Source: Xiphias gladius
Taxonomy: Eukaryota; Chordata; Actinopteri; Istiophoriformes; Xiphiidae
Assembly (NCBI RefSeq): GCF_016859285.1
Contig: NC_053417.1
Span: 22,474,706-22,538,705 of the forward strand
Length of the DNA stretch: 64,000 nt
Reading direction: 5' to 3'
Part shown: in pieces, positions 130-56,915 of the stretch
Layout: every line of letters starts with the position of its first letter
How positions within the stretch are numbered: the stretch's first letter is position 1
Translations under genes and position numbers: made by a program
The notes under the pieces: generated by a model
What the model was told of the DNA's origin: nothing
What the model saw: only the letters and a program-made list of their open reading frames with translations
The model's database searches: none

Positions 130-506
130 ACTTGCCTTTACATTGAAGGGGGTCAAATCCAGCTGATTCCTGATCAGAAAGTTCCATATGCCACCACAGA
201 AAATCAGTGGGTTGGATTTGATGACAAAGACAGTCGTGCTACAAAGGTAATTATCTGTTTAATTCAGTATTAACTGTGCAAATGACTGATTGCACACACA
301 TCTGGTTAAATAGATCATGTATTTTGTCAGCATGAGTTCTGCAGTAGAAATGTTTTCTTCCTCATCCTCTCAGGTCAGTTACCTAAAAACAAACAACTTT
401 GGAGGAGCTTTTGTCTGGTCTCTGGACCTGGATGACTTTAGTGGGCAGTTTTGTAAACAGGGCAACAATTCCTTCATCAGCCACCTGCATACTCTCCTGG
501 CTCCAG
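130..506 (+). CDS. Chitinase-family (GH18) gene, 3' exons only; gene starts outside the window
   Basis: Two exons of a GH18 chitinase-like protein are visible at 130-246 (39 codons) and 374-506 (133 nt, ending in phase 1). They have the same lengths and phases as the matching exons of the complete gene downstream. The first holds the ENQWVGFDD stretch and the second the FGGAFVWSLDLDDF segment that forms the end of the TIM barrel and carries a conserved substrate-site Trp. The second exon is followed by a good donor (GTAATA). The expected last exon with hinge and chitin-binding domain is not recognisable between 507 and 5400. If the donor is read through, translation ends at 544. The gene may therefore encode a short chitinase-like protein or be a decayed copy. 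The catalytic exon is outside the window, so activity cannot be judged. Confidence 0.8.
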
Positions 507-5398: not shown

Positions 5399-5473
5399 TA
5401 TATAAAAGCCTCATTGCCACACATCCTCAGCCACAGTAAAGAGGGGATTGTAGCCTCCATCTCCAACATACGT
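5399..5473 (+). promoter_or_regulatory. TATA box and untranslated first exon of the chitinase-like gene
   Basis: TATAAAAG at 5401-5408 sits about 30 bp before a likely transcription start near 5430. The short untranslated exon ends at 5473, followed by the donor GTGAGT. The next exon starts at 6451 after a clean CCCCACAG acceptor, seven bases before the ATG at 6458. The intact chitinase at 42-45 kb also has a TATAAAAG box but has its ATG in the first exon, so the two genes differ in 5' structure. Confidence 0.65.
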
Positions 5474-6457: not shown

Positions 6458-9400
6458 ATGAGCAAGCTAATTCTAATTGCAGGTAAGGCACTTTTTAAAA
6501 CTGATCAAATTAACATTCACAAAAGCTCTGTTTTAACCGAATACTGACTGAGTCTGTCCCTTTGAAGGTCTCTGTGTGATCATCTCAACCTTGGGTGAGT
6601 TTATCTTTTGCATTAAAAAATCTTAAATTAAATCCCTAAATAATTAGTGTTGTCAACTCTGATCTTTATCTCAAATTAACCAACTGATTTCTTACATGTT
6701 TCAGCTTCGTCTTCCAAACTGGTGTGTTACTACAACAGCTGGTCCGAAAATAGAATAGGGGAAGGGAAGTTCACGCTATTAGATGTTGATCCAAACCTGT
6801 GTACCCATCTGATCTTTGCCTTTTCTGGCATTAATGATGCCCATGAGCTGGTCCCCAATAACAGAAGTGACCTGCAAAGCTACATAACTTTTAATGAACT
6901 GAAACTTAGGTCAGTGCTTAATCCTTTATATACTGTAGAAATTGCCTTTTTATTTTAAAGTATAAAATAATTATTGCTTAACTTCTATTCCTCACATAGA
7001 AATCCGAATCTCAAAACCCTTTTGGCAGTTGGTGGCTGGACCTTTGGCACACAAAAGTAGGATACGTAAATACAACATAACAAATTACATCTAATTTAAT
7101 ATCTGGCATGTCTCCTTCAGCGCAATTTCTGTTTAAATGTGCAGATTCAGCGCCATGGTGGCAACAGCGGCCAACAGACAAAAGTTCATCCTGTCATCTA
7201 TCACACTACTGAGAACATTCGGCTTTGACGGGATAAACTTGGACTGGCAATTCCCTGGAACACAAGGAGGCCATCCACTGGACAAAGAGAGGTTCACTCT
7301 GTTGTGCGAGGTCAGATCTATAATTTCTCCTCTGAGACAAACATAATCACAAATACACAATAAAAGATGGATATTGTTATGATTAATTATTATTATTAAT
7401 GCTACGTTATTTGACATCTAATCAAGCCAGACTGACCCATGCCTATGTATTGTACAGGAACTCCTATGTGCCTATGAGGATGAGGGAATAGAAACTGGCC
7501 GCCCCAGATTACTAGTCACCGCTGCCGTGGCTGCTGACAAAGAAATCATCGATGCCAGTTATGAAGTTGCAAAGATTTCCAAGTAAACAGAACTTTTTTC
7601 TTTCTCCATTATTATTTTCATTTCAGTGATTAGATGTCATCATGTGTTGGTGAACTCGATCACAATTGCATTTTTTTGTTTTTGTTTAGGTACCTGGATT
7701 TCATTAATGTGATGACATATGACTTTCATGGCAATTGGGACTGGTTCACAGGACATCATAGCCCTTTATACAGTAGACCCCAAGACACTGGAAGTTTCGT
7801 TTACTTAAATACTGTGAGTGGAGGATCTCATACTGTCATTTGTCAATTAGTTATTAGGTATATAGAGATAAAATTGATGACAGGTTAAGAGGGTATTTTA
7901 AGAATACACATTTAATTTAAGTTGAATTTATATGTTTTTCAATGTATCTATTTTCAGATCGTATTTGTCACTAAGATTTATAGCCAATTGGTTATGAATA
8001 CCTTTTAAGTATCATATTCCTTTATGAAACAATAATACATGCTGATAGAAGCACTGATATCAGGGAATGATATTTGCCAGCACAAATAGTGATATAAACT
8101 GCCTCGAAATGCCAGTGGGAGGTGGTCCCTCTTAGTGAATGCCATTTATTTGTAGAATATTCTTTTAAATTTGCATAATGCTGTAACTTTCCCAACTCAG
8201 GTGTGGATCGTGAATATTATTATTATTAACCATTACAGGTAATAAATATTTATTACACAGGATGCTTAACATAAAGCTGGGTATCTTCTAATCTATTTAT
8301 AAATGAATGGTGTATCTCAACAGAGCAACAGTGTAGTACCAATAATCAACAGTGACACTTTTTCATCTTTCTGCCCGTCTGCAAAAGAATCGACAGTCTA
8401 TGGAGAGAACAAACATTTTTGAGATCAGTAAAGCACGGACATTTGCCCCACGCTGACTGCAAACGGGTTCACTGCGTCAGTCCAAAAAGGGGTGTATGTA
8501 ATGACAGAACACTTCTTACCTTTTTGTTAGCACACTTTTCGGATTTACAACAAGGTACCACAGACTGAGCGACAAAATCCAGTGACTTGAGACTTTTATT
8601 TTACACTATACACTATGGAGTTGTTGCTCACATGAACTATATAGCTGTTTTGTGTCTTCTTTCTAAATTTCAGGACTTTGCACTGCGGTACTGGCAGGAC
8701 CAGGGGGTAGCTGCTGAAAAGCTAATTTTGGGATTTGCTGCATATGGACGAACCTTTACCCTATCCTCTTTATCCAGTGAGGTTGGAGCACCAATCAGTA
8801 ATGTTGGTCATGCAGGCCTTTACACCGAGGAGGCAGGCCTCTGGTCCTATTACGAGGTGAAACTGAAAGATCCAATCAGACCTAATAATTGGGCTAATCC
8901 AGTGGTTCTCAAACTTTTTCTGGCATGACCCCCCTCTTCAGAAGCCGAAACAAGTTCAAAAGTTCACCCCCGGCCCCACGCCTCCACAACTTGACTTTTA
9001 GTAAAATAAAGGTTAGCACCATAGCATCAGCAAACTCTTGTTTATTTTCCCTACATAAATGATATTCATTCATCTTAGTTTCACTCCATATTTTTCCCCT
9101 TGCCATCCATGTCCCCTCTGTAGTGGCTGTATGCCCCCCAAGGGAGGCCTGCTCCCCAGTTTGAGAACCACTGGGCTAATCATGCATATAGATTTTATTG
9201 TGTATGATGTGTAAAGTCTCTGATTAGGCGAATATGTTGTTTTAAAATTTGACCCTTCTTTTCAGGTTTGTCTTTATCTTGAAGGAAAAACAGTCCAGTG
9301 GATTGAACACCAGAATGTTCCATGTGGCAGCACAGGAAATCAGTGGGTTGGATTTGACAATAAAGAGAGCATTTACGCTAAGGTAGCCATGTGTTTTAAT

Positions 9401-10240
9401 AAAACTACTACAGTAATTCTTTAGACAATGACTAGTTGTACGCAAATCCAATCATACAGTTACTGTATTATCCTGACTTTAAATTTTTTTCTTTTGTATA
9501 CTCACAGGTCAACTACCTAACACAAAACAACTTTGGAGGAGTCTTTGTCTGGTCTCTCGACCTGGATGATTTTAAAGGGCAGTTCTGTAAACAGGGCAAA
9601 TATCCCCTTATCAGCTATCTGCATAGTCTTCTGGTGTCAGGTAAACCCAAAAGGTTTTAAAAAGTATCTATCCTATCCTGTAGAATGGTATGGGCATTTT
9701 GATGAAATTTTGGATGAAATCTCAGCAGTTAAACTCAGTCACAGTCATACAATTTATTGATCAGATAAAACTACATTACAATATGTGACCAATTTCTTCC
9801 ACACCTTCCACAAACCTCTCTAAATATAGGAGTTGGACCTGGACATGTAAATATTCATCATATTCCACATCCAGAGATTCCACCTGTGGACTACAGCGAC
9901 GAGCCTGACTATGAAATTCCAATCCCTGCCACCACCGCCCGCCCCGCCCGCCCCGCCCCGCCCCGCCCCGCCCCGCCCCGCCCCGCCCCGCCCCGCCCCG
10001 CCCCGCCCCGCCCCCGCCGCCGCCGCCCCCACGACCAATGCTGGAAAACTGGATAAAACATTCTGCGTAGGAAAGCCCAATGATCTTTTTCCCAACCCCA
10101 ATGACCCAGGCTCTTTTTTCCAATGTTTCAATGGCAAAACCTATTTCCAAGTATGTCAGCCTAATTTAGTCTTCCAAGAAAGCTGCAAATGCTGTAAGTT
10201 TCCCAACTCAGGTGTGGATCGTGAATATTATTATTATTAA
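6458..10240 (+). CDS. Chitinase-like protein (GH18 + CBM14) with altered catalytic motif; C-terminal domain out of frame
   Basis: Exons: 6458-6482, 6568-6594, 6705-6909, 7000-7056, 7145-7310, 7458-7582, 7690-7813, 8674-8856, 9266-9382, 9508-9640 and 9830-10240; phases agree through all junctions. The protein has a signal peptide (MSKLILIAG...), then the GH18 barrel: CYYNSW, GGWTFGT, the catalytic segment FDGINLDWQFPG, MTYDFHG and the FVWSLDLDDF strand. GH18 chitinases need DxxDxDxE. Here residues 136 and 140 are Asn and Gln, so loss of hydrolysis with possible sugar binding is inferred. The last exon has a hinge, then a six-cysteine chitin-binding domain (FCVGKPNDLFPNP...). A CCCCG repeat in the hinge leaves the two parts in different frames: read straight, translation stops at 10054-10056 after 462 residues; the CBM14 frame runs to TAA at 10238-10240. 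Assembly error, repeat-length allele or real truncation are all possible. Confidence 0.88.
8175..8288 (+). repeat. Near-identical copy of the gene's own 3' end inside intron 8
   Basis: About 110 bp here match 10187-10299 in the same orientation with only one or two differences. The source region covers the last codons of the chitin-binding exon, its stop codon and the start of the 3' UTR. The copy lies in the intron between the exons ending at 7813 and starting at 8674. The high identity implies a recent duplication or gene conversion. Confidence 0.85.
8900..9173. mobile_element. hAT-type MITE with perfect 8-bp target duplication
   Basis: The ends CAGTGGTTCTCAAACT and AGTTTGAGAACCACTG are perfect inverted repeats. 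The 8-bp GGCTAATC occurs immediately on both sides (8892-8899 and 9174-9181). The 274-bp element has no coding capacity, so it is a non-autonomous hAT element. It sits in the intron between exons 8674-8856 and 9266-9382 of the chitinase-like gene. Confidence 0.95.
9951..10010 (+). repeat. (CCCCG)12 pentanucleotide repeat in a coding exon
   Basis: Twelve perfect CCCCG units lie in the hinge of the chitinase-like gene, with related C/G-rich sequence on both sides (9935-10030). Every frame reads through as Pro, Arg and Ala. Because the unit is 5 bp, each gain or loss changes the frame of the following chitin-binding domain. With twelve units the upstream and downstream frames disagree by one base; thirteen or ten units would put them in agreement. 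Confidence 0.93.
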
Positions 10241-11142
10241 CCATTACAGGTAATAAATATTTATTACACAGGATGCTTAACATAAAGCTGGGTATCTTTG
10301 CTTCTTATACTTCACTACTACTTTACTGAATTCAATGCAAGGTTCTTCCTATGTAATGAAATCCAGTTTGAATGCCTCCTATTTAGATAGTCAAGTGTGA
10401 GAGAAAAATTTTAATCTTTCATTTTCTTTTTCAACTCAACAAATATATAATTTACGGGGAAATTGTGATGTCATTCATTACATCACAATTGGTAAATATG
10501 GTAAAATAAATCATATGACAACAAGCACATCATTGCAGTTATTTGTTATGTTTGTTGTATTTTTGTATACGTTTTATTTTTAAACAGTGCCCGTGTCAAG
10601 CTTGTGTCCAAATTCTAAATAGCCTTTACAAATAAGGATTCATTTTAAGGAGTCAGACATTAAAATTCAAAAAATAAATCACTGAACATGACTCAAGAAG
10701 AAGTACAAAAAATACACTTTTGAATATCACAATTCAACAATATTTATTTATTCAGTCATTTACTAAAATCATACCATCATAATTTTAAGTTAAAAAAATC
10801 ATCAGAGCAGTCCATCACAAAATCTTATTCACTTACACAAAGAAGCGTCATAACATTGGCCTGTGATTATTCCATTTCAGCAAGGTCAATATTGTATCTG
10901 ATCACACAAGATTGAAATGAGTCATGAGTTGTTTTACTGTACAGCTCAAACTATAGGCCACTGGAAAAAATTACCTTCTGGCTCTAAAATACAGATCCCA
11001 CCATTTTTTGAAATTCCGTGACAAAAGAGTGAGTCAGGCCATGGTCCACTTGAGACCTGTTGAAATTATTCTGACTAACAATAACACAGCAGTAGCCTGT
11101 GTTATTGCATTTGTTTGACTTGTTACCAATGCTGTCAATTCC
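10241..11142. other. 3' UTR of the chitinase-like gene, then 3' UTR of PM20D1
   Basis: The left part is the untranslated end of the chitinase-like gene. The right part is the 3' UTR of PM20D1 on the opposite strand, ending near the AATAAA signals at 10743-10752 (read on the minus strand). The two genes converge, leaving only a few hundred bases between their ends. No coding exon is visible. Confidence 0.6.
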
Positions 11143-14100
11143 TCAGAGTTCATGGATAGAGCTGTGAGGCTCAGGGAGGTTCTGAATGTCACAGTTTTGA
11201 ATCAGACTGAAGTAAAATACTACAAACTCCTCGTAGTTCTTTTTGGAAATCCTTTCATTGATGCCATGGAATCTAACAAAGAGAAAAAAAATGTTTTCTC
11301 ACTAATAACTTTCCTTCATGGTATCTAAGAAAAGGAAAAGACTTTTCCCTTATTCGATTGCCTGTTGCTGTTCTTGCAGGGAGAATGACTTTTTATTACC
11401 AAAACTGAGAGGTAAACTGGAGCATCACAAGTTTGTGATGTAAACGTGTGACCAGCAGCAGAAAGCTCTCTTTTGTTCAAGAAGTTGCTTCATAGTTTGG
11501 CAGTTATCACACTGCACAAGCAGTTTATTATAGTGATTGACAGCAGGTTTTGTTGAGACCTCTCTTTAGACTTTTTATATTCAGTGTTAGACATACTAGA
11601 CTCTTACCTCTGAGCATCACCTGGTTTAAACCAGGCAGGGATGAAGCGATAAATATCACGGGTCAGGTCTTTGAAGTGTCGACTGTCTGTGTTCCCAATA
11701 CAGATACCTGCACATTCAAACATTATATCAAAACACTTATGGAATACTTAAATAACTAAATAATCACATTTTTATACAATTAAGTCTACCTGGAGCGATT
11801 GTAACTGTTGGTAACACGTCCAACACAGTTTTCTTAATGATCTGGAAGCCAAAGGACTTTTCATCAGCAGAGCTGACCGGCAGAGGGTCAAACCCATCGA
11901 CGAGCTCAATCTTCACTCGCTGGTCCCCCACTGTTGAATGGATGAGGTCCAGGACCTAGAAGAGACAGCTCGCATTTTATTCAACTCAGAATATTAATTT
12001 TTACATCGGGAAATCTTGAAAAGGAGAATCACATTTCGGACTCTACCTCTTGTAATGACTGCGCTGAGTGGATTCGCAAATTTACGTAAGCTTCAGCGAG
12101 GGAAGGGATGACATTCACCTACAAGGTGGGAAAGAATTTAGGAATTTTTCTATGGCAAACTGTATTGCCTACAATCTAATTTCATGTGAATTACCTTTTA
12201 TTTTATAATTATTAACTGTACCTTAACGCCTGCATTAAATATGGTGACTGCTGTGGTTGTCCTTACAAAAGCATTAGTGTCTGGTTTTCTTTCCAGTACC
12301 CTGTAATACAAAATTTACTAAGATTTATTCCAAAGGACAGAGTCAGAAGAAAAACATGCTGAATGAATTTTAGGATGTATTTACCTGCCAAGGAGTGGAG
12401 AGAACAGCCACAAATTCGACATGATGAACTTCGTTGGAAGCCTAAACTGAAGTCAAAGAACAAGTAACAACAGGGAAAGATCTAAAATGCTTCACGTTGT
12501 GATGAGTAGTAGACAAGTAGTTGGTTCTCCCTACCTTGTGGGCCAGGTGTTCAAATGTTCCACGTTCAGGCCCATGACCAAATAACCTCGGCATAGGGTT
12601 CTCCTCTAGTCTGAGGAAACAGCATTACACAGTCACAGTCTTAGTTTTTGACTTTTTGTACACTGAGTGGTAAAAATGCACTATGTAGTCAAACATATGG
12701 TACAGCCTGAACACAGCGACCAAACAGCACACATTGTACGTTCCTCTCACCTTTTGACTGCTGCCGCCAAGATCCCAATGCTGGTCTCACTGGGAGGCAT
12801 CGAGGAGTGACCAGGGACCATAGACACACTAAGCTTTACAGTGGCTGCGCCTTTTTCACTTATCCCAATTCTGCAAAAAAACGCAGAATGTTTATCAGTC
12901 ACTCGCACCATTTAATGGAGACATGCAATTTTATACTATCCTTGTAAATTTTTTTGTGACGCCGGGTCTGGACTTTTTACCCAAGAAAAACCTGCAAAGT
13001 AAATATCATTCTGTGTTGTTACATCAGAGTATGGCAGGTTCTCACAGAGCAGCAGGTCCTTCAAGACCACTGATGACTCCATCCAGTATAGCCAGGCCCT
13101 CGTCTAGGACAAACGACAGCTGCACACCACGCTGCTTCAGCAAACGCACTATGTTCACTGCCCCCTTGTAACCACTGACCTTTAAAAAAAAATACGGAAG
13201 GACTCAGACATTCAAATATAATATTTTGAATCTTATTTAAGTTCACCGTTTCAAGAGAGTTGTATGAAAAGTTAAAGTACTTCCTCATCATGACCAAGAG
13301 CAATGTAAAATCCTCTGCGTGGAGCATAACCTTTTATGAGCAAGTATTCCAGTGCCTGAAGTATTCCCTATAAGAAATATAGCACATTAGTTTAGACTTG
13401 CAGGCATATGAAAGGTAAGTAAGTATGTAATTAAATTCTGTGTAATACCAAGATCACACAAAATATCACTTGTTCTCTCACCATTACAGAGCTCTTGTCG
13501 TCTATGGTCCCTCTACCATATATAAAGCCATCTATCTCCTTGGCAGAAAATGGCGGGGCCTCCCAGCCATCTGACTCTGAGGCAGGTACCACATCAATGT
13601 GGGCCAGCAGCAGGTATGGCAAAAGGTCAGGCTTTGATCCTGGCACCCAAAACAGGTGGCTGTAGTTGGCCACCAACTCATGATGAACCAATCTTGAAGA
13701 GAAAACTGTTGGGAAGGCTGTTACAAGAAGAAGAGCACAACGTTTACAGTGAAACTCTCTACCAATTTTTTACATATTAATGTCAGTTCATTACTATAAA
13801 AGTTGTATAACATCGGATGTGGCTCTAGTGGAGCTCCAGAGTCTGTGAAAATAAACCTGAAGATGTCATCAGCGTTATCTTTAAGGCCTTGTTAGAAAAT
13901 AGGGGCGTAAAGGTTGAAACATGCCTCTGTTGTAATCCCTCTGAATTCAATGATAAAACAATACTAACTTGCTTTCCTACCCATTTAATTCCTTCTAATA
14001 GCAGTATTACAAATATGACACTGTTGCCATGTCTGACTCTGATATCCTACAGAGAGCTGAAAGATATTTTCATATTCTATGAATTGACTAGTCAATTAAT

Positions 14101-15869
14101 AGACTATTCACTAATCACAAAAATTAATCAGCAACTACTTTGATAATTAATCTATTGTTTGAGTCCTTTTTCAAGCAAAAATGCCAAATATTTGCTGTTT
14201 CCAGCTTCTCAAATTTGAGGATTTGCTGATATTATTTGTCTTATATGATAGTAAAGTGATTATCTTTGGGTTCTGGACTGTTGGTCAGATAAAACAAGCA
14301 AAGAGAGTATAATTGTGATGGGCATTTTTCACTTTTTTGTCTGGTATTTTAGAGTTAAAATGAATAATTTATTAATCACAAAAATTGGCAGATTAATCAA
14401 TATTGAAAAAAAATGTCAGTTACACCCCTATTGTATATTTTAGCAGTGAAGTAGAGATTATTAAATATATAGTTTCGAATAAACCACATCATAACTTACT
14501 TAAAGAGTAAGAAGAAACCTTTATTAAAATGTCACATGAAAGACTGTAAGATATCTAAGGCTGGGTCACCAACCAGGCAAAGCGGGCAACTTGCCAGGCG
14601 TCCCAAACCCCCATATTTACTCCTTATCATTTGGGTCTACTTAATTTGATTAACAGCGTTAGACGTGTGTTAGACATTTACAACACTGAAGTACAACATC
14701 AGCCTTCATGCTGTGGTCCTGTTCTTGTAAAGGGGCTCTGTGTAAAAGTCTAGTTTTAGGACTTAAATTGTTTTAGTTCATATTGTGCTCATTTGTTGTG
14801 AAGTGTTTTATTAGATTGCTTTAACTTTTTCTGTGTGTCCAGTTATTAAATTCACAGAAAACCTCGGGCAAGGTAGATGATCTTACGCACTGCACTTGCT
14901 GCTGATAATTGCATTAATAAGCAGGTTTGCAGGTGTTTTAATAAAGCGCTCAGTGAGTGTATAAGGTTGTTACACTATCTGGGAGAATCCCATGTTTCTG
15001 TGTTAAGGAATGTTAAAGATATCATTTATAGAAATATCGAAATGGAAATACAGAATAAGGGGGGGGGGGGATGTCTGGAACCATCCAATCACCCTCCCAC
15101 TTCACAACTCTAGGGGGGCCCAACAACGAATGTTTGCCCAAGGGGCCCCTTACGAGGTTAGTGCGGCCATGAAGCTACCCGTTGCTCTTGGTAGAAGACG
15201 TCTGCTGCGACCTGTTGAGTCATTTTGATTAACAGTTGCGCCTCCGTAGCTAGCTAACCTTAGCTCAAGTGTAGCTTAGTAGCAATCTCTGGCACCGGGT
15301 TAACAGTTAATCGTTAGCTGTCGGTCGGCGTTAGCTTGAACAGCTCGGCTAAATCCCCGTCGTGCTCGCGGGTGTGTGAGGCCACCGCAAACCACCAAAC
15401 ACACTTGTGACTACATGAGACGGGTCAGCGTGTCGCATTATTTTAGGGCCATGTTTACCTCTTCGGAGGAGCCTGTCAAATTCAAGCAGCGCGGTGGTGT
15501 TGCTCTCAGTCCTGGAGAAAGACACTGTGGGGATCAGGATAGCCTCTGCGTGGGTTGAAGGAAGAGACACACTGTCTGTTACAAGCGGCTCCACCTAATA
15601 AACACATTTAGCTGGGTCAGGTACTTGCCTAAAACACGACTCGAATTACCTTTAAAATTTGCTAGGAGTTCCTCTCTCTGATGGTGGTCAATGACAAGCG
15701 AGATGTTTCTCGTCTTTTCCCAATTGGCGAGTTGAAGTCCGACATTTACGTCCAGTGTGAGAGTCTTGATGGATGCTATGGTAAACAGCAGCAAGACTGC
15801 AATCAGTAAGCTACTAATAACAATCTTTAAAAACTTTAATGTCTTGAACTTTGGCCCTGATTCTGACAT
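11143..15869 (-). CDS. pm20d1: PM20D1, N-acyl-amino-acid synthase/hydrolase (M20 peptidase family)
   Basis: Thirteen minus-strand exons, in gene order: 15869-15650, 15545-15459, 13717-13482, 13367-13281, 13179-13046, 12870-12751, 12610-12535, 12446-12385, 12300-12222, 12118-12047, 11955-11790, 11707-11608, 11272-11143. The phases close to 522 codons; human PM20D1 is about 500. PM20D1 is a secreted enzyme that joins or splits fatty acids and amino acids to make N-acyl amino acids. Visible features: an N-terminal hydrophobic segment (signal or anchor, residues 13-35), the zinc-site HxD (LAHIDVVPA, His142/Asp144), the bridging Asp in GRGTIDDK (Asp175), the catalytic pair GHDEE (Glu209/Glu210), the dimerisation-domain block [11 protein letters not shown], and the late His in FHGINERIS. 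All expected catalytic residues are present, so the gene looks functional. The acceptors of exons 7 and 8 were chosen by phase over nearer AGs. Confidence 0.95.
14080..14435. repeat. Interspersed repeat with 'aattaatca' ends, copy 1 (PM20D1 intron 2)
   Basis: This AT-rich stretch shares its order of blocks with 21088-21440 and 32045-32352: a TTAATC-rich end, a 'ccagcttctcaaatttgagg' block, a 'gggcattttt' block and a second TTAATC-rich end near a 'gttgcagcc'-like terminus. It is a fossil non-coding element common in fish genomes, probably a MITE. The class is not certain. Confidence 0.6.
14558..15175. repeat. Probable decayed DNA transposon in PM20D1 intron 2
   Basis: The stretch begins with a GGGCAACTTGCCAGGCGTCCC-like end and finishes with CCCAAGGGGCCCCTTAC, with G-runs at both ends as in several fish non-autonomous transposons. 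No target duplication or transposase could be confirmed. The rest of the large intron (13718-15458) shows no exon. Confidence 0.35.
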
Positions 15870-16694
15870 TATTTATCTGCTGTGACAGCGGAACTCGTTC
15901 ACTGCGACTGTGTGAAGCCGGTTGTTGAAGAGCGCCACCTGCTGGCCCGAAAGCGAGCAGTCACACTTAACTGTATATTCAAAATAATGTTATCGAAGTT
16001 TCTTTACCCTGTCACCTAGTTCACTCATTCATTTCCAGTGCTTCCATTATGTTAGAAAGCACCCATATAACTTGCACTTGTAATATTTCTCATGACATGC
16101 CGTAGAAGTGGATTTCACTCTATGAAAGATGGTTACTGATTTCTATGTCTGCATGGATTGTTTTTTCACTTTGATGCCATCAGTTGGACGGAAAAAAAAA
16201 GAATAAAAAGTATGAAGCAAAACATCCTTTAATGAAATATGATTCAAATGCTTAAAAAAAAATAAGGCACATCAATGACATACAGTGACAATTCCTTGAA
16301 AAGGTGCAGTCAGGTTACACAACTTGCGTTGGGAAATAGACAAAAATGAGAAAATTCTCATTATTTTTACATTTGACAAAACATCCAGGTCTTTAATGTT
16401 TTGACGGCATCTATATGCTTACAGAATTATTTTAACTATAGGGACAAGATTGCTAACACATCCATAAGCAAAACATATGTATGAGTAAAAATGTAAAATG
16501 TAAAAGTGGACTTTGAGGTATGCTCCCATAAAGGCACAAACACAGTGTTTAAATTAAAATGTGCTCCCCGGAGACAAAGTACAAAGTCATTAAGGCTTGC
16601 ATAAACAAAAAAGTAACAACATCTGTAAGTCAATGTAGACAGTTAAAAAACACATAATTACTCCTGTCCAGAAAGTGCTGGTGCGTTCTGTGCC
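15870..16694. other. PM20D1 promoter region and 3' UTR of the LEM-domain gene
   Basis: Only 825 bp separate the PM20D1 start codon (15869) from the stop codon of the upstream minus-strand LEM gene (16695). The right side is that gene's 3' UTR, with a possible ATTAAA signal at 16233-16228 on the minus strand. The left side must hold the PM20D1 promoter. I see no TATA box within the 150 bp before its ATG. Confidence 0.5.
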
Positions 16695-19600
16695 TCAGTC
16701 TGAATCAAAAGCCCCTCTTAAAATATCTGACCCCTGGTTTAGACTGTCCAGTAAGGCCGCAAACGGACTGAATGAGTTGTCATCAACACAAACATAAATG
16801 AGGTACAAGAGGCATGCCACAATGAGGAAGACCAAAATCTGTATCTGGATGGGCACGAGGCGACGCTCCACCTCTCGTCTCTCCAGGGTCGTGGGACTGA
16901 CGGGAGTGTCTGGGTACGCGTACTGGACAGGTCTCCCTGCTGCCCCCTTGATGGGTCTCCGACGAGTGGCACTGAAATAGAAGGATATATGGTGCTGATA
17001 ATCCAATCACAAAACTCCTACCTGTATGTGCTACTATGCAAGTTGTCCATGTGTCACCAACCACCAATTAAAATTCCTCTTAAATTTCTTGTACTTTGGT
17101 GAAATCTACTTCTCATTCAACAACTTAGAAACCTGCTAAGAGGAGTAAGAGCACTTACTAGATCCCCGTGGGTGTGGTCTCAGCATCGGGAAACATTTCC
17201 TTGAAAGTATTCTTCACAGGCTCCTGAGGAAGCTAGAAGGGAAAGCAAAAAAATGACTCAGAACAGAAAAAAAAAAAACAGAAAAACAGAAAATTGTCCC
17301 AGACAGCAGTGTCCCACAGAGACAGAGGCCCAGCCAGTCAGGTAGAAATGAAGGAAAAGGGTGATTGGTAATGTAATAACCAGATATCCGACACATACTG
17401 ACAAAGTATTAAAACTGAGCAACTGTTATTGGTTATTGGGTTTAATTTTCTAGTTGAGGCTAAGGCATAACAACACAGACATATGAAAGGAGTTACACCA
17501 GACGTAGTGTGTTCTTGTGGGCAATGCACACACCCCCATCCAGTCATATGGAATAAAAAAAAAAAAAAAAAAAGGAAAAAGAAAAGCCAGCAAGAAGATG
17601 CATGTGCCTTCATTCCCCATTCATGAGGGGAAGTCTTGGGGGTGTAGTACAGGGACTGGTTCTTCATGGTGCCGTTGTCCACAACTGGCATGTCCAGCTA
17701 AGGAAGGGAGATGTAACAGATTGTAATACAATGGATTTCAGTAAACTTAATTTCACCCTCCCTCCAGTGAACCTCTCCCACACTTGTACCACCACCAAAG
17801 TTTGAGCTCAAAGTGTGGTTGAACAATGTGGGCACTACTGACCCTGTTGGACCGCGACCAATTTTCCTTCACATTGCTCTCGTTCAACTCTCTCTCAGTG
17901 TTTTTACTAGTAGAGAGTGACCTCCGACTCTCCATCTGTTGTTTGGAGTGAGAATGTACATTACTAAGTGATTACTCACACCAATAAAGTGAAAGTGAAA
18001 TAACGGGGGATTTTTAAAGATGTGGAGTGTGGGTTTAAAAACAACTTTCCTCTTCGATCATTTGAGTGATGCTGAAGGCTTCCGAGGAAAATGATGAGCA
18101 ACCATTGGCCATAGCTAATTGTGATCCAGATGGAACCTGCAAGGATTCGCATTATCATCATGTCGACAGCTACACAAACATGTATCAGTCATCACCCAAT
18201 CCATACACCAATGAGATACCTATGCCCATCACTTTATGACCAAAAACATAGTATTAGGGGCTTGAGAAGGACGAACAATAAAGTTAGACAGCCTAAGCAG
18301 GTAATGCAGAGAATTTCAAATCCAAAAGAGACGTGAAATAAAACCCGCCTACCCCTGATCCTAATCGTTGATCTACACAGGATGCTCCACTAATTCCTGA
18401 GGGAATCTGTGAGCAGCGAGACAAACTCCGCTCTGATGATTTTGACGCACTTCCCAAATTCCATTTGGGACTAGGTTCCCTGTTTCTAGAAGCACGAGCA
18501 CGCTAGAAGAGGCCAACCCAATCAAACACAGAAATAAGAAAAACACACGGGGAAACCCCTGAGAATTCAGGTTGACAGAAATTTGTTCAAATACTAATAC
18601 TCTAAACACTCTGTAATATCTGTGATATTTACCAGTCTCGATGAGGGTAAAAAGCACTGTGGGTAAGCAAAACCACCATTCTGAAAATACATCTCTACCT
18701 GTGAAAAGTGAAAAAAAAAACAAAAAACACACACTAACACTCAAAATGCAAATGCATGGACATTTAAAACCCTATTTTATAGGTGCAGTCTGCAACCACT
18801 AAGTGGCACTGTAGGGAGGACTTATTTCAATATAGCGTGTGATGGCAAAAATACTTTAAGGAGATCTATTAACCCAAAGTGTCGTAAGTATATAGATAGT
18901 GTAAGCTCCCAGATCTCAGGTAAGTCAAGAGATACAATTCATTTACACAGAAACTACAAATCGTTTCACCAAGGAACTGCAACCTACAATTTTCTCACCT
19001 GGCTGCTCTCTTGCTGTGCCTGGTCCGACTGTTCAACTGTTTCTTGTTTTCCTTCTTCAGTACCTGTACATGTCAAAAAAAAATACATAAAAATGTAATT
19101 ATGTGATACCAACTATAAAGATAAAACATGTAGACAAAAAAAATCTGAAACATTTTAAGTCATACCTGACTCCGCATCCTCCTCTTCCCCATTTTCCTCC
19201 TCTTCTTCACTGTCAGAGTACAATATACCTTTCTCTGCTCCATTAAGTTTGTCATGTCCTTCAGACTGAAGCAGTCTGCTGAGCCTCTTCTCATACAAGG
19301 CCCTGGTGGAGGCTAGCATAGGCAAACAATACTATAGTCATTTGTTTTTTTAAAGACAGGGGAAAACAGAAGGTGAACGTGCATGGGGAATCCTATTTCT
19401 ACGATGAAAACCAATTTCAAGATAGAATAAAGTGCAACCTCACCAACAATGGGCCCAGCTTTTTCCCCGTATTCTAGCAGCGCAGCCTTGAGGTCATCAT
19501 CAGTCAGTCCACTTGGGTCGGGCATCTCCGCGTCCTCTGGATTCTCCCCCTTGTCCTCACAAAAACAAAATTTGTTGAATTTACCGAATTCTGCTCAAGA

Positions 19601-38602: not shown

Positions 38603-41465
38603 ATGTTTATGGATGAGCGGATTGTAACTCTGTTCAAAAGGAATGCCCATCACACGTTGACCTACTGGAGTGTTTTCTTCAGCTTTGGACTCTGCATTGC
38701 TTTCCTCGGACCCACAATTTTGGACTTGCAGTGTCAAACAAACTCAACACTCAGTCAGATCACCTGGGTATTCTTTGCCCAGCAGTTCTGCTTGTTGATC
38801 GGCAGCTCCGTGGGTGGCGTTTTCAAGCGGACGTAAGTATCACGAACTCACAACTGGAATATTATCCCCCAGACTCTGCTGTGCAGTTGTTTGGTTTGCA
38901 CATTATAATAATACTCTCAAAATGATTGTCTGTCAGCATTACTGGTATTTGTCTCTTTTCTATCTTAAAGGTTGTTCAGTGCTCTAGCTGCCTTATTTGT
39001 CTCTGCTCTCATCATCTCTGTAATATTTGCCATCATCCCTCTGTGCAATAATGTTCTCCTGCTGGCCATCGCCATGGCTGTGTCTGGTTTGGCAATGGGT
39101 ATTATTGACACCATTGCTAACATCCAACTGGTGACCATCTATCAGAAAGACTCAGCCGTTTTTTTACAGGTGAAAAAGCACCACAGGACCAGCACCGCAT
39201 CTGTAGAAATACTGGCACAACAGCATTCACATTCAATGAATAATTAATAGCAGGTTCAGGCAAAATAAAAACTAGAGATTTTGTCTTCCCACAAATACGG
39301 AAAGACAAATGAACTACGATTTTGTACACAATATGCTCTGTAGGAGTATATTGTCAAGTTAGATTCCAAATATACACTCTATTTTGAAAAGATACGCTAA
39401 GTCTTGTCTCTTGCCTTTGTCTTTTACCGACATTTTGCAGGCTCTTCATTTCTTCATTGGGTTTGGAGCCCTGGTGAGCCCTCTGATTGCAGATCCCTTC
39501 CTCTCAGAGACAGGCTGTGGGAATCACACAGGGAATGGGACCGAGATCATGCATCATTTCAGGAACATGCTGAGAAACAGTCCGATTGCAGAGCACAACA
39601 TAACTCAGAGCCACCTTCCCCACGAGAGAGGGGAAGAGGAGTCCATTGTGCACTATGCTTTCTGGATCATGGCACTTATTAATGTATGACATTGAACAAA
39701 CATAGATTTAGAAGTTAGTGGGTTTTTTTTAAATAAAGTCTAAATCTGTGTGGTTTTTTTTTTCTCCAGTTAAAATGTCAAAAGTGTAAAAAAATGAACA
39801 TTATTTGTGCGTCCTCAGCTGCCTGTGCCCATTGCAGTCCTGTTCCTGTTGTATCGGGAGCGTCTGATCCCATGCTGCCCCAGCGGCACTCCACGTCTTC
39901 TGGACAAAGATGAACTGGCAATGGAGAACCAGCAGGGGGCCGAGGGTCCAGATGTGGAGCAGAACGAGCACGAAGCTGGAGGTAAAGAAGTGCAAGAGGC
40001 GAGGTTTACACTGTATTTCATTATTTTATTAAAATATTTATGATACTATTGCATGCTTTCGTTGAATTTCAGCCAGTTTAGATGGAGAAAAAAAAACAAC
40101 AAATGCCATGTTATGAGCAGAATCTTTCATTTGTGACTTTTCGCTCGGTTACAGGTCATGGGGATATCTTTAGCTGCTGTCAGTATGATAACTTGCGTGG
40201 CCTGCCAATATCCTTCTTCATGATTCATGTCCTTGGTGGGATGGTGCTCTTCATGACCGATGGTATTGTGGTGAGTGAGGCGCACAGAATAATAATGCGA
40301 CCTGAATTTTGCAAATTGTGTTCCACGTAAAATTTCATGAATGTATACAAAATGTGCTTCGAATGATACAAGGACCTGCCTTTCTTTTCAGGGTGCATAT
40401 GCCGGCTTCGTGTACACCTACGCTGTGACACCACCAATGTCACTGCCTCATAAGACAGCAGGTTACCTGGCCAGCATCTTTTGGGCCGCGATCACTGCTG
40501 GACGTCTGTTGTCCATACCGCTCTCGTATCGTTTCCAGCCTGTGAGACTGCTCATGTTCAACCTGGTAAAGCCAATGAGACATTCAGCGTGCCATCACAG
40601 TACAGACGAGACATACACGATGAAACGTAAAGGTCAAACACTTGGTGATATCAACACTAACTTGATCACACCCTCTCCTCTTTGATTTTACAGGCAGGTG
40701 CTATTGTAACTGTGTTGATGCTGCTTATTTTCTACACCAGCAGCACCTTTTTGTTTGTTGGTACCTGCTTATGTGGGCTGTTCCTCAGCAGCATCTTCCC
40801 GTGTATGCTTGCCTATACTGAAGACATCCTCAATTACCAGGGTATAATGAAGTGTTTATAGCACAACAATAATAATAGCACAGTAATGGAATCGAAGTGG
40901 GGAGAGAAAATAAACCATACATTTCGTTTTTGCAGGATGTGCAACCTCAGTCCTAGTCACAAGTGCAGGAATGGGGGAGATGGTAATGCAGGTTCTGGTT
41001 GGTTCAGTAAGTCTGATGAGTAACTTCATTATTATAGAAATACAGAGTGTGCAGGAGAAGTGAAATGGGCTTATAATTGTAGAAAAAAATCCTCAGTGGA
41101 GATTTGGATTCATTTTCAGAGGTGTAATGTTGCTGCCTCATCCCTAGATTATCCAGACTGAAGGCAGCTACAGTTTCCTGCTGTGTGGAATGATAATCGC
41201 CTGCATCGGATTTATCGTCTTCATCGGTCTTCTGCTGTTCCATCGAATGCACAGAAATTACCTCACAGGTACAGTATCAGCCGGCACCTTCAACCACTGC
41301 CGCTGAAGATTTGTTTTCATTCATTTGATGCTAACCATCCCCCACTCCAACTCCCCCTGCAACCCAACAGGAACATCGAAAAAGTCTGCCATGGTGGAGG
41401 AACCAGCAGCAGAGCAGAATGGCTCTGCCAAAACAGAACCGAAAGAGGAGAAAGAGAGCAGCTGA
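38603..41465 (+). CDS. mfsd4a: MFSD4A (SLC60A1), major facilitator superfamily transporter
   Basis: Ten exons: 38603-38832, 38971-39169, 39441-39683, 39819-39981, 40155-40270, 40392-40565, 40694-40841, 40936-41006, 41148-41268 and 41371-41465, totalling 519 residues with all phases consistent. The protein matches vertebrate MFSD4A along its length: LTYWSVFFSFGLCIAFLGP (helix 1), GSSVGGVFKRT (loop 2-3), GLAMGIIDTIANIQL, YQKDSAVFLQ, GFGALVSPLIADPFLSE, a glycosylated loop (NHTGNGTE and NITQS sites), YAFWIMALIN, MTDGIVGAYAGFVYTYAV and LAYTEDILNYQGCAT. About twelve membrane segments are expected. It is an orphan or sugar-type transporter of the plasma membrane. The start ATG gives MFMDERIVTLFKRN, which aligns with the family N-terminus. 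No damage was seen. Confidence 0.96.
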
Positions 41466-42227: not shown

Positions 42228-45200
42228 TCAGGACCAGTTGCAACAAGAACAGGAGCTGTCAAAGACCAGACCAGCAGCACAGTACTCAAAGTAGGCTTCT
42301 CCCCCTCTGCAGATGTAGAACTGGTTCTTGTTTGCTGGGTTAGGGTACATGCCGTTGGCCTTTCCAGCGCAGAACCCGCTGTCCATGCCGCTGGTGCCTG
42401 AGTCCCCACCAGAAGGGTTGCTGCCACTGGAGCTTCCTCCAGAGCTGCCTCCGGTAGTCGTGCTCACTCCGGCTATTGGAGGAAGGGGAGTGGCAGCAGG
42501 GGCACAGGCTGAAAAACACCACAAATGAATTCTTTAATGAAAGGATTTTTCTGTAAACAACCCTGTATGGATTTCACGTTGATCATTAATAATAAGGGTA
42601 TTAAGAATCTTACCTGCTTGTTCCAGATTAAGGCCCTTTTTGAGAACATTAATCAGTGGGTATTTTCCCTGGTTACAGAACGTGCCCAGGTAGTCATCCA
42701 TATCAATGGTCCACACCATGGCACCTCCAAAATCACTCTTCTTAAGCCAGCCAACCTACAGACAACCAGAAGGGGGTGGTGTTGACAGCATTTTAATTGA
42801 GGTCAAAAACAGAAATTGTTTGCTGATAACTGCAGCGGGACTCTACATACATTAAAATTGGCATCCTTTTATAATAATTAATATAGTTTTTGACAGCTTA
42901 GGGGCATTGGGAAGCTTTTTGGCTCAGAGGTAATTCATCACAGCCAAAAAGATTTGCCTGCCAAATAGTAAAACAAGTATTCTTTACGTGTCTGTTACCT
43001 TGATCTGGAAGCTCTTGATGTTGTCATAGCCCACCCACTGGTTTCCCTTATAGGCATAAGGCACATCCTGGGCCTGGTTCCAAACCTCAGTTGCTCCATC
43101 TTTCAAAAAGCCACAGATCTGTAATTTCACAAAGTAATGCGTCAATGACAACCTAGGAACTCATTCGCTTCTTCATCTAGAATCTGTAATACTATGATAA
43201 CCGGCATGCTCTGTTATTGAGCATAAAGAGGAGTATTAAGTAACAATGAACCACTATTAACATTCAAGCCTATTCGTTTTTAATTTATTATAGTAACAAG
43301 AAAGCATACCTCAAAGTAAGCGAGTTCTCCAGCCTCTTGTGTGTACTTTCCTGGAGTTCCAGCACCAGAAATAGGTGCTCCAATACCATGGTCAGCAGGA
43401 TTCCTGAGAGTGAATGTGTTTCCATACGTGGGGAAACCAACAATCAGCTTCTCAGCTGGGGCTCCCTGGCTCTTCCAGTAGTTCATGGCATACTCCTAGA
43501 ACGAAGGAATTGGAAATATACATGGCTCTGGAACCAGATAGATTTTGTGGATGCTTTAATGTAGTTACTGATAAAACTTGCAGATGTAATGAATATTCTT
43601 TTCAACACACCCAGTTTTGGTAAATTAATAAAATTTCGATGAAGATGTTCAACTACTCACCACATTGAAGTAGATGTAGCCACCGTGGTCCTCAGGGCCT
43701 CTAAACAGGGGGCTACATTCGCCGGTCATGGGGTCCCAAGAGCCGTGGAAATCATAGGTCATGATATTGATCATATCCAGGGCCCTGGGTGTGGAAAACA
43801 CACAAGGGGAGAGGTTACCACACTGACTTTAACAAGGTTTAGATCAATAATTTTAGTGTATAGAGTTGTTCCATTAAGCTGTGACCCATTTTTGTTTGCT
43901 AAGGCTAAAACTGGACACGCCACAAATATTGCTTCAAATGCTTACTGGCCAAGCTTGGGAATCTGATAAGCAGAATCAATGGTGTCCTTTCCAGCCGACA
44001 CAGCAGCCGACATCAGAAGACGAGCCTTGTGGCTCTGCTCGGCCTCATTCTCAAAGGCAGCTCTCATCTCCTGTTGAATGTCAACATATATAAAAAGATT
44101 TAGTGTTAACTGAACTCCAGGGTTCATAATCCTTGATTTGTATCATGGTCGGGGTGTGAATTGTTTTGCTTTAATGTATCTTTTATCCATCAAGGTGCTG
44201 TGGGAACGCCACAGGAATTTATCGTGGCCCAAAAATTTGAAACAAGCTTGACCAGTGTCGTCTTTGCTATATTAGGTAAGAAATTGTTTAAACCGTATTG
44301 GGGAAAAAGCAAAAGTGGAATCTGAACAGAAATGTAAACATGGTAAACAAACCTCCAGGAAAACAGAGTAGTACTGCTTATCCTCAGGAGGGCTTCCTCT
44401 GTTGGCTGGATACTCCCAGTCAATGTCAAGCCCATCAAACTCATACTTCCTCAGGAATGAAATGACTGAGTTGATGAAGGTCTGACGGTTGGCAGGGCTT
44501 GACACCATTTGTGAGAAACTATTGAACAGAGACAGAAATGTATTAACGCAGCGGATGATCCTCATTGTTTGGAGTGCCAAGTCTGCAGATTTATGCAGAT
44601 TGTCTCACCCCGCGGAGCCAAAGTTCCATCCTCCAACAGACAGAAGAGTCTTCAGGTTGCCATTCCTGCCAAGCAGTCAGACATTTTACTCTGCAGTGGC
44701 CACTAAAAACACCGCTCCTTTCTTAACTGTGCTCTCTGGGCGTAACTTTATTGGATTATTTCCTTTTATACAGGAGGAAACAGGCATTTTTAGTGACTCA
44801 CTTATTCTTCAGGCCATTGAACTGACTGTAAAGCTCCACATCATTCCACTCATAGGTGGCGAGTTGGTTGTTCTTAATGGTGGCGAAGGCATACAGAAGA
44901 TGGGTACACAGGCATGGATCAATGTCACTGGGCATATAAATGGTTGGAGGAGGTCTGTACTGTGCCCAGTTCGTGAAGTAGCATGACAGTATGAAGGATG
45001 AGCCTTTGATACATAAGAAATCCATTATTCATGGACCAAACACTCGATGCAATGCAATTTGTGATCATAAAAAGAAAAATAAACATGTGTGCAGTATCCC
45101 ATATTCATAATTTGCTTACCAGGCTGTGTATGTAGCAGCATGGCCAGAGCTGTAAAAGTTAAAAAACACACACTTATCTTTGAGCAAAAAGAAATTGACT

Positions 45201-45375
45201 GTAAGTGGAAAAAAAAAAAAGCTCAAAATTGCAGCCTAAAAATGGCTGTAATATACTGTCCATCCAAATCTGGTAAATAGCAATTCTCCGGAGACCATTT
45301 ACTATACATAAAAGAGAAAAATGTTTCAGCATACAGCAGCACAGACTTACCCATCACAAACAGTACTTTGCCCAT
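42228..45375 (-). CDS. chia: Acidic chitinase (GH18 + CBM14), catalytically intact
   Basis: Minus-strand exons: 45375-45351, 45149-45120, 45003-44802, 44665-44609, 44518-44353, 44070-43946, 43784-43661, 43495-43310, 43118-42999, 42755-42614 and 42508-42228; 485 residues, phases consistent. It has a signal peptide ([14 protein letters not shown]), then the GH18 barrel: [20 protein letters not shown], the full catalytic motif [11 protein letters not shown] with Glu at residue 140, [15 protein letters not shown] and [11 protein letters not shown] Ser/Gly/Thr-rich hinge leads to a six-cysteine chitin-binding domain ([13 protein letters not shown]...CSCCNWS). It should be a secreted endo-acting chitin hydrolase, in fish typically made in stomach or other gut tissue. 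Exon sizes and phases match the altered gene at 6458-10240, so the two are paralogues in inverted orientation. No defects seen. Confidence 0.96.

Positions 45376-53093: not shown

Positions 53094-56915
<3,822 letters not shown>

Follow-up and report, generated by a model that had tools for sequence, protein, structure and literature searches.

A probable non-hydrolytic chitinase-like protein of the CHIT1 lineage with Ym1-type catalytic residues in Xiphias gladius

The window analyzed here is a stretch of 64,000 nucleotides from Xiphias gladius (assembly GCF_016859285.1, contig NC_053417.1, positions 22,474,706 to 22,538,705), and all positions are given in its coordinates. It carries chitinase-related genes of the GH18 family in three places. 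Gene 1, the subject of this study, lies on the forward strand from 6458 to about 10240, gene 2 on the reverse strand (45375-42228), and gene 0 is a partial forward-strand gene (130..506). The features are listed in Table 1. The exon set of gene 1 was chosen by hand and comprises 11 coding exons, with GT donors in exons 1-10 and AG acceptors in exons 2-11, and the exon-start phases are identical to those of gene 2 in all 11 exons. Once the exons are spliced, the barrel frame is uninterrupted for 387 codons, and the GH18 barrel profile PF00704 matches over its full length (profile positions 1-317 of 317) with 308.8 bits. Exon 5 corresponds exactly to 7145-7310, and a plain frame-1 translation of this interval runs into a stop because the exon begins in phase 2. 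Judged by eye from its N-terminus, the protein would be secreted. An earlier note on this DNA, made from the sequence alone, had described the landmarks and intron layout as intact. This holds for the open barrel, the splice sites and the phases, but not for exon 11, where the CBM14 domain is out of frame.

The catalytic segment of spliced gene 1 reads FDGINLDWQFPG, with N136, D138, Q140 and F141, which confirms the claim of the earlier note that Asn136 and Gln140 stand in place of the catalytic acids. The DxxDxDxE motif of active chitinases, with Glu as the general acid, is absent (DGINLDWQ). The residue numbers had been said to be those of acidic chitinase, and alignment bears this out, with a one-residue deletion near 17 cancelled by a one-residue insertion near 64. 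Gene 2 does keep DGLDIDWE (D136, D138 and E140), as had been stated for the paralogue. Between gene 1 and gene 2 the codons differ at 136 (AAC vs GAC), at 140 (CAA vs GAG, a difference of two bases) and at 141 (TTC vs TAT). In GH18 proteins the loss of Glu140 should abolish hydrolysis, and with its general acid E140 replaced by Gln and D136 by Asn, the protein predicted from gene 1 should be unable to hydrolyse chitin. A GH18 barrel close to CHIA and CHIT1 in which the catalytic Glu is replaced is what defines a vertebrate chitinase-like protein (CLP), and gene 1 shows both.

The best matches of gene 1 in the PDB set were acidic mammalian chitinase (AMCase; 8fg5, 447 bits), chitotriosidase (425 bits) and a second AMCase chain (2ybt, 420 bits), followed by chitinase-like proteins 3 (Ym1, 406 bits) and 4 (Ym2, 391 bits), CHI3L1 (362 bits) and CHI3L2 (352 bits). 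The labels mouse and human, which we attach to these chains below, are our own assumption and were not printed by the search. Both the Ym1 and the Ym2 chain read NLDWQYPG and thus have the same N136, D138 and Q140 as gene 1, in agreement with the Ym1 pattern given in the earlier note. Searches with the 388-residue gene 1 protein gave no pattern match in viral contigs and 11 pattern matches in bacterial and archaeal contigs, none of them confirmed, and are uninformative on fish.

The phylogenetic trees are unrooted, and our use of the term CHIT1 lineage presupposes a root placed elsewhere than between gene 1 and CHIT1. In the nine-sequence tree, gene 1 groups with CHIT1, CHI3L1 and CHI3L2 (support 97.5/98), and Ym1 and Ym2 stand with AMCase across a branch with support 99.3/100. 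In a tree of eight sequences (without CHI3L2) to which gene 0 was added with 84 residues, genes 0 and 1 form a pair (99.3/99) that groups with CHIT1 and CHI3L1 (99.1/99). To see whether a long branch was drawn to other dead proteins, we repeated the analysis on two reduced data sets. Without the CLPs (five sequences) gene 1 grouped with CHIT1 at support 99.6/100, and without its 40 changed columns (nine sequences) at 98.2/97. In the approximately unbiased (AU) test, placement with CHIA was rejected with all columns of the nine sequences (p=0.033), with five sequences (p=0.0024) and with the 40 columns removed (p=0.043), and so was a pairing with gene 2 (p=0.0069, 0.0039 and 0.013, respectively). 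According to these trees, gene 1 belongs to the CHIT1 lineage, apart from Ym1, Ym2 and AMCase. Gene 1 was also considered as an orthologue of Ym1/Ym2 (Chil3/Chil4), and this was rejected on the same grouping. The trees support the view that the N/Q pair arose twice, in gene 1 and in Ym1; no root is needed for this, because CHIT1, gene 2 and both AMCases, which keep the acids, lie between the two.

The parallel with Ym1 extends beyond the catalytic residues. Mouse AMCase, human AMCase, human CHIT1 and gene 2, which all keep the acids, served as references for invariant columns and for the cleft. At 159 invariant columns gene 1 departs 40 times, compared with 28 departures for Ym1, 29 for CHI3L1 and 33 for CHI3L2 (gaps excluded). 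The changed columns common to gene 1 and Ym1 number 19, where 7.0 are expected (hypergeometric p 1.2e-7), and five of them have the same residue; Y34, E70-W71-N72, L76, N100, T118 and M358 are among the 19. With CHI3L2 gene 1 has 12 such columns in common (8.3 expected, p 0.077) and with CHI3L1 eight (7.3 expected). Ym1 in turn overlaps with CHI3L2 in 13 columns (5.8 expected, p 0.0006) and with CHI3L1 in eight (5.1 expected, p 0.1), and the related CHI3L1 and CHI3L2 overlap in 12 (6.0 expected, p 0.004). The test gives every column equal weight although the columns differ, and as its internal control we take gene 1 and CHI3L1, which overlap only weakly. Changed alike in gene 1, Ym1 and CHI3L2 are Y34, T68, E70, W71, N72, N100, T118, E140 and A170.

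A similar picture emerges for the sugar cleft, for which we listed 27 positions according to what is known of AMCase and CHIT1 structure, 23 of them constant in the four references. Gene 1 departs at nine of the 23 (Y34, W71, N100, D136, E140, Y141, P265, A302 and M358), as many as are changed in Ym1 and in CHI3L2, whereas CHI3L1 is changed at four. Six of the departures (Y34, W71, N100, D136, E140 and M358) are common to gene 1 and Ym1. Gene 1 keeps the other 14 constant positions, among them W31, F58, W99, D138, Y212, D213, W218 and W360, and the remaining kept positions we likewise take to be cleft-lining. Support for a place in the cleft lining is found for Trp31, Trp99, Asp138, Tyr212, Asp213, Trp218 and Trp360 in excerpts of one study (PMC3115046), and for W31 and F58 in excerpts of another (PMC11190707). 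Where the references have E70-W71-N72, gene 1 has N-R-S, an N-glycosylation sequon and the only one in its barrel; it is not shared by gene 2, mouse AMCase, CHIT1 or Ym1.

Inactive relatives of chitinases are already known. Salmon Chia.5, published in 2023, belongs to the CHIT1 lineage, is inactive and has a truncated chitin-binding domain, as described in excerpts of that work (PMC10234404). Gene 1 fits this teleost CHIT1 group and is likely an orthologue, with the difference that a CBM14 is still encoded, out of frame behind a pentanucleotide array. The Discussion of the same work states that fish chitinases generally keep the conserved residues of their active motifs, and contrasts them with mammals, in which dead chitinase-like lectins have expanded. 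Ym1 and Ym2 share the three catalytic-segment residues with gene 1 but group with CHIA, and A183, V184 and W218, which are lost in Ym1, are kept in gene 1. YKL-39 (CHI3L2) lies on the CHIT1 side of the tree and its 12 changed columns in common with gene 1 include E140, Y34, E70-W71-N72 and N100, but it reads S138/I140 and has lost W99, M210 and Y212, which gene 1 retains. YKL-40 (CHI3L1) is also non-catalytic, falls on the CHIT1 side and has Y28 and S30 in common with gene 1; it differs by A138 and L140 and by keeping Y34, W71, N100 and M358. Gln in place of the catalytic Glu is also described for Drosophila IDGFs and three oyster GH18 proteins, which belong to distant lineages, the IDGFs being without a chitin-binding domain (excerpts of PMC1945033). 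Among the matches listed in the open literature, as far as their accessible text goes, we found no report of gene 1 or of a fish chitinase with N136/Q140. Dead chitinase relatives are thus established, but in the literature searched we met no mention of the array, of Ym1-type residues in such a gene or of so deep a parallel.

We posit, with a probability of a little over 60%, that gene 1 encodes a teleost GH18 chitinase-like protein of the CHIT1 lineage that is non-hydrolytic, has kept its barrel and is likely without tight chitin binding. Most likely it is another teleost chitinase-like protein like salmon Chia.5. After the loss of catalysis, constraint would have slackened at those positions of the sugar cleft that also changed in Ym1 and in part in YKL-39, with the folded barrel kept. 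The remaining protein might bind short oligosaccharides or some other partner without hydrolysis, the role proposed for Ym1-type proteins, and would not be a tight chitin lectin. Should this be true, a fish gene of the CHIT1 lineage would have acquired the two catalytic changes of Ym1 together with parallel cleft losses. This would show that the route can be taken more than once and would point out which positions change when a chitinase gives up catalysis. The pseudogene label attached to the teleost CHIT1 group would come under scrutiny as well.

Gene 1 may instead be a young pseudogene, in which catalysis was lost first, constraint was relaxed protein-wide and the frame break in exon 11 is early decay, a possibility that we consider real but about half as probable as a retained protein. 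Selection was assessed on 83 codons of exons 9 and 10, the part available in gene 0. The ratio of nonsynonymous to synonymous substitution rates (dN/dS) between gene 0 and gene 1 is 0.48 by the NG86 method (bootstrap 95% 0.25-0.95, with 2% of 500 replicates at or above 1) and 0.50 by LWL85, which argues for constraint. In these exons there are 60 differences in 249 bases, and in intron 9 72 of 115 aligned bases are alike. The comparison of gene 1 with gene 2 is saturated (dN 0.45, dS 3.17, NG86) and was not used for selection. The 387 open barrel codons, the intact splice sites and the TATA-like element that remains upstream also speak against a pseudogene, as does the overlap with Ym1, which lies well above expectation, so that the changes are not scattered. 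At variable columns, gene 1 matches none of the four references in 73 of 203 cases, compared with 69/197 for CHI3L1, 80/198 for CHI3L2 and 49/203 for Ym1.

A number of results nevertheless weigh against a retained protein or against its placement. The dN/dS comparison covers exons 9-10 and not the catalytic exon, its maximum likelihood estimate over the same codons is 0.71, and the differences by codon position (18, 18 and 24) show a weak third-position excess. The terminal branch of gene 1 (0.59) is the longest in the nine-sequence tree with all columns, but no longer so with its 40 changed columns removed (0.40 vs 0.48 for CHI3L2). Its 40 changes at invariant columns exceed those of all three CLPs, and the contrast between invariant and variable columns (40/159 and 73/203) is weaker than in CHI3L1 or CHI3L2 and similar to that in Ym1. 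When one chitinase at a time was held out as a control, gene 1 had more departures than the protein held out, with 77 vs 55 of 216 for CHIT1, 56 vs 35 of 194 for gene 2, and 45 vs 10 of 169 for mouse AMCase, in which case human AMCase remained among the references. None of the eight other sequences in the alignment has a cysteine where gene 1 has Cys 159, 164 and 324, the CBM14 as assembled is shifted by one base from the barrel frame (offset 1 mod 3), and the 3' end, including its polyadenylation signal, is copied within intron 7. For the salmon and teleost CHIT1 group, low expression and a possible pseudogene status are stated in the excerpts available (PMC10234404). As for the placement, the trees have no outgroup, the Kishino-Hasegawa and Shimodaira-Hasegawa tests on the nine-sequence set do not reject placement with CHIA (p=0.052), and residues diagnostic of CHIT1 and CHIA in gene 1 stand at 35 to 34. 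Weighing the sequence evidence on both sides, we think that a retained protein is likelier than a pseudogene; constraint would have held for much of the history of gene 1, with recent decay being possible. The assertion of the earlier note that the gene's features argue against simple decay has the open barrel in its favor but is weakened by the frame break, the longest branch and the status reported for the teleost group.

The same note had proposed an independent fish route to a chitin-binding, non-hydrolytic lectin. The independent origin is upheld by the grouping of gene 1 with CHIT1 and of Ym1 with CHIA, while chitin binding is doubtful, given cleft losses like those of Ym1. We regard a lectin that binds chitin through the barrel cleft, and perhaps through CBM14, as unlikely. 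The 14 kept cleft positions and the six-cysteine CBM14 that is still encoded would suit it, but Y34, E70-W71-N72, N100 and M358 are replaced, a sequon occupies the place of E70-W71-N72 and the assembled sequence has the CBM14 out of frame. For Ym1, which offers the closest parallel, a loss of chitin binding is reported, and Ym1 with D136 and E140 put back stays inactive, whereas YKL-40 is described as binding chitin strongly and YKL-39 as binding chitooligosaccharides (excerpts of PMC11190707, for Ym1 citing Okawa 2023). Since the changes of gene 1 match those of Ym1 and partly of YKL-39, and not those of YKL-40, weak or no chitin binding by the barrel would be expected by analogy. Binding of oligosaccharides may persist, because YKL-39, with nine of 23 departures including the same losses of Y34, W71 and N100, is described as retaining it. 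Assembly or sequencing errors are a very improbable source of the catalytic substitutions. A single assembly is the source of the sequence, but codon 140 is two bases away from that of gene 2, N136, Q140 and F141 are changed together with six other cleft positions, and no tandem repeat was reported in exon 5. A single miscall cannot account for the cleft changes, as D136, E140 and Y141 are three among nine departures.

The frame break in exon 11 has to be judged apart from the substitutions. The CBM14 of gene 1 matches PF01607 with 28.9 bits (cut-off 22.1) and has six cysteines, counted by eye. Translation of the assembled sequence yields a protein that lacks a complete CBM14 at its end, as do mammalian chitinase-like proteins. 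Upstream of the domain lies the (CCCGC)n array, whose longest pure run of 12 units gives one and the same cyclic pentapeptide, PAPPR, whichever of the three frames is read. In GC-rich simple repeats, units are often miscounted in assemblies. The break, known from one assembly, may be such a miscount, a fixed loss or a polymorphism, and it may well be an assembly error. One array length in three keeps the CBM14 in the barrel frame, because five and three share no factor. Because gain or loss of a five-base unit shifts the downstream frame while the array peptide stays the same, the array could conceivably act as a natural frame switch. Its length would then decide, allele by allele, between a CBM14-bearing protein (one in three) and a bare, Ym1-like barrel (two in three), both as a polymorphism within one species, a scenario to which we give only a small chance.

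Table 1. Features of gene 1 and of the two paralogous genes in the window.
Feature	Position	Strand	Basis
TATA-box-like element (TATATAAAAG)	5399..5408	+	letters read from sequence; role judged by eye
Probable non-coding first exon, downstream of TATA-like element	about 5430-5473	+	by eye
Coding exon 1; start ATG, signal-peptide-like MSKLILIAG	6458..6482	+	splicing; signal peptide by eye
Coding exon 2	6568..6594	+	splicing
Coding exon 3; W31, F58 kept; Y34 to N, W71 to R (AMCase numbers); N-R-S sequon at 70-72	6705..6909	+	splicing, alignment
Coding exon 4; GGWTFG; W99 kept; N100 to T	7000..7056	+	splicing, alignment
Coding exon 5; catalytic segment FDGINLDWQFPG, N136/D138/Q140/F141	7145..7310	+	splicing, alignment, codons
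Coding exon 6	7458..7582	+	splicing
Coding exon 7; MTYDFHGNW; M210, Y212, D213, W218 kept	7690..7813	+	splicing, alignment
Copy of gene 1 3' end in intron 7 (CBM14 tail, 3' untranslated region, AATAAA at 8241)	8177..8287	+	sequence match to 10188-10298
Coding exon 8; Y267 kept; R at 269 as in CHIT1	8674..8856	+	splicing, alignment
Coding exon 9	9266..9382	+	splicing
Coding exon 10; W360 kept; M358 to F	9508..9640	+	splicing, alignment
Exon 11 in barrel frame; proline-rich linker; stop codon 10054-10056, before the CBM14 stretch ends and out of CBM14 frame	9830..10056	+	
(CCCGC)n pentanucleotide array, 18.6 copies, 91% matches	9938..10029	+	repeat search
CBM14 (PF01607), six cysteines, frame differs from barrel; CBM14 frame stops at 10238-10240	10064..10195	+	start from first residue of Pfam match
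Gene 2; intact DGLDIDWE, in-frame CBM14, 11 coding exons	42228..45375	-	splicing
Gene 0, upstream tandem paralogue; last two barrel exons 130-246 and 374-506, remainder beyond left edge of window	130..506	+	

The two copies of the 3' end (8177-8287 and 10188-10298) are identical at 110 of 111 bases. The copied AATAAA in intron 7 could lead to early polyadenylation. At the sole mismatch the coding copy has Lys, and the intron copy and gene 2 (CCNW) have Asn; therefore it is probably the coding copy that changed after a recent duplication. This difference was considered as a guide to the order of decay, but it amounts to one base. Intron 8 contains a stretch (8900-9180) that resembles an interspersed repeat by eye.

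For gene 0, no CBM14 exon turned up in the interval before gene 1 when two CBM14 sequences were used as tblastn queries. If the exon 10 donor of gene 0 were unused, the frame would end after 12 more codons (stretch 506-544, stop at 542-544) and leave a barrel without CBM14. Positions 1-60 resemble the acceptor and start of gene 0 exon 10 (354-400) and sit before exon 9, by eye as if part of the exon had been duplicated.

Between gene 1 and gene 2 lie a peptidase M20 match (13431-13769, PM20D1-like by eye, within a neighboring reverse-strand region at 13431-19594), a LEM-domain match (19313-19594, reverse strand) and an MFSD4-like transporter (38969-40685, forward strand), the last assigned by eye from two open reading frames without a Pfam match. 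The human counterparts of these neighbors are presumably located on 1q32 together with CHIT1, which would fit the CHIT1 placement of gene 1. Further along the window there are an F-box match (60706-61227, reverse strand) and a Ras-family match (55698-55997). Two similar exons 704 bases apart (56125-56209 and 56829-56913), whose products end by eye in KCCLF and KCVLL, are probably alternative last exons of CDC42.

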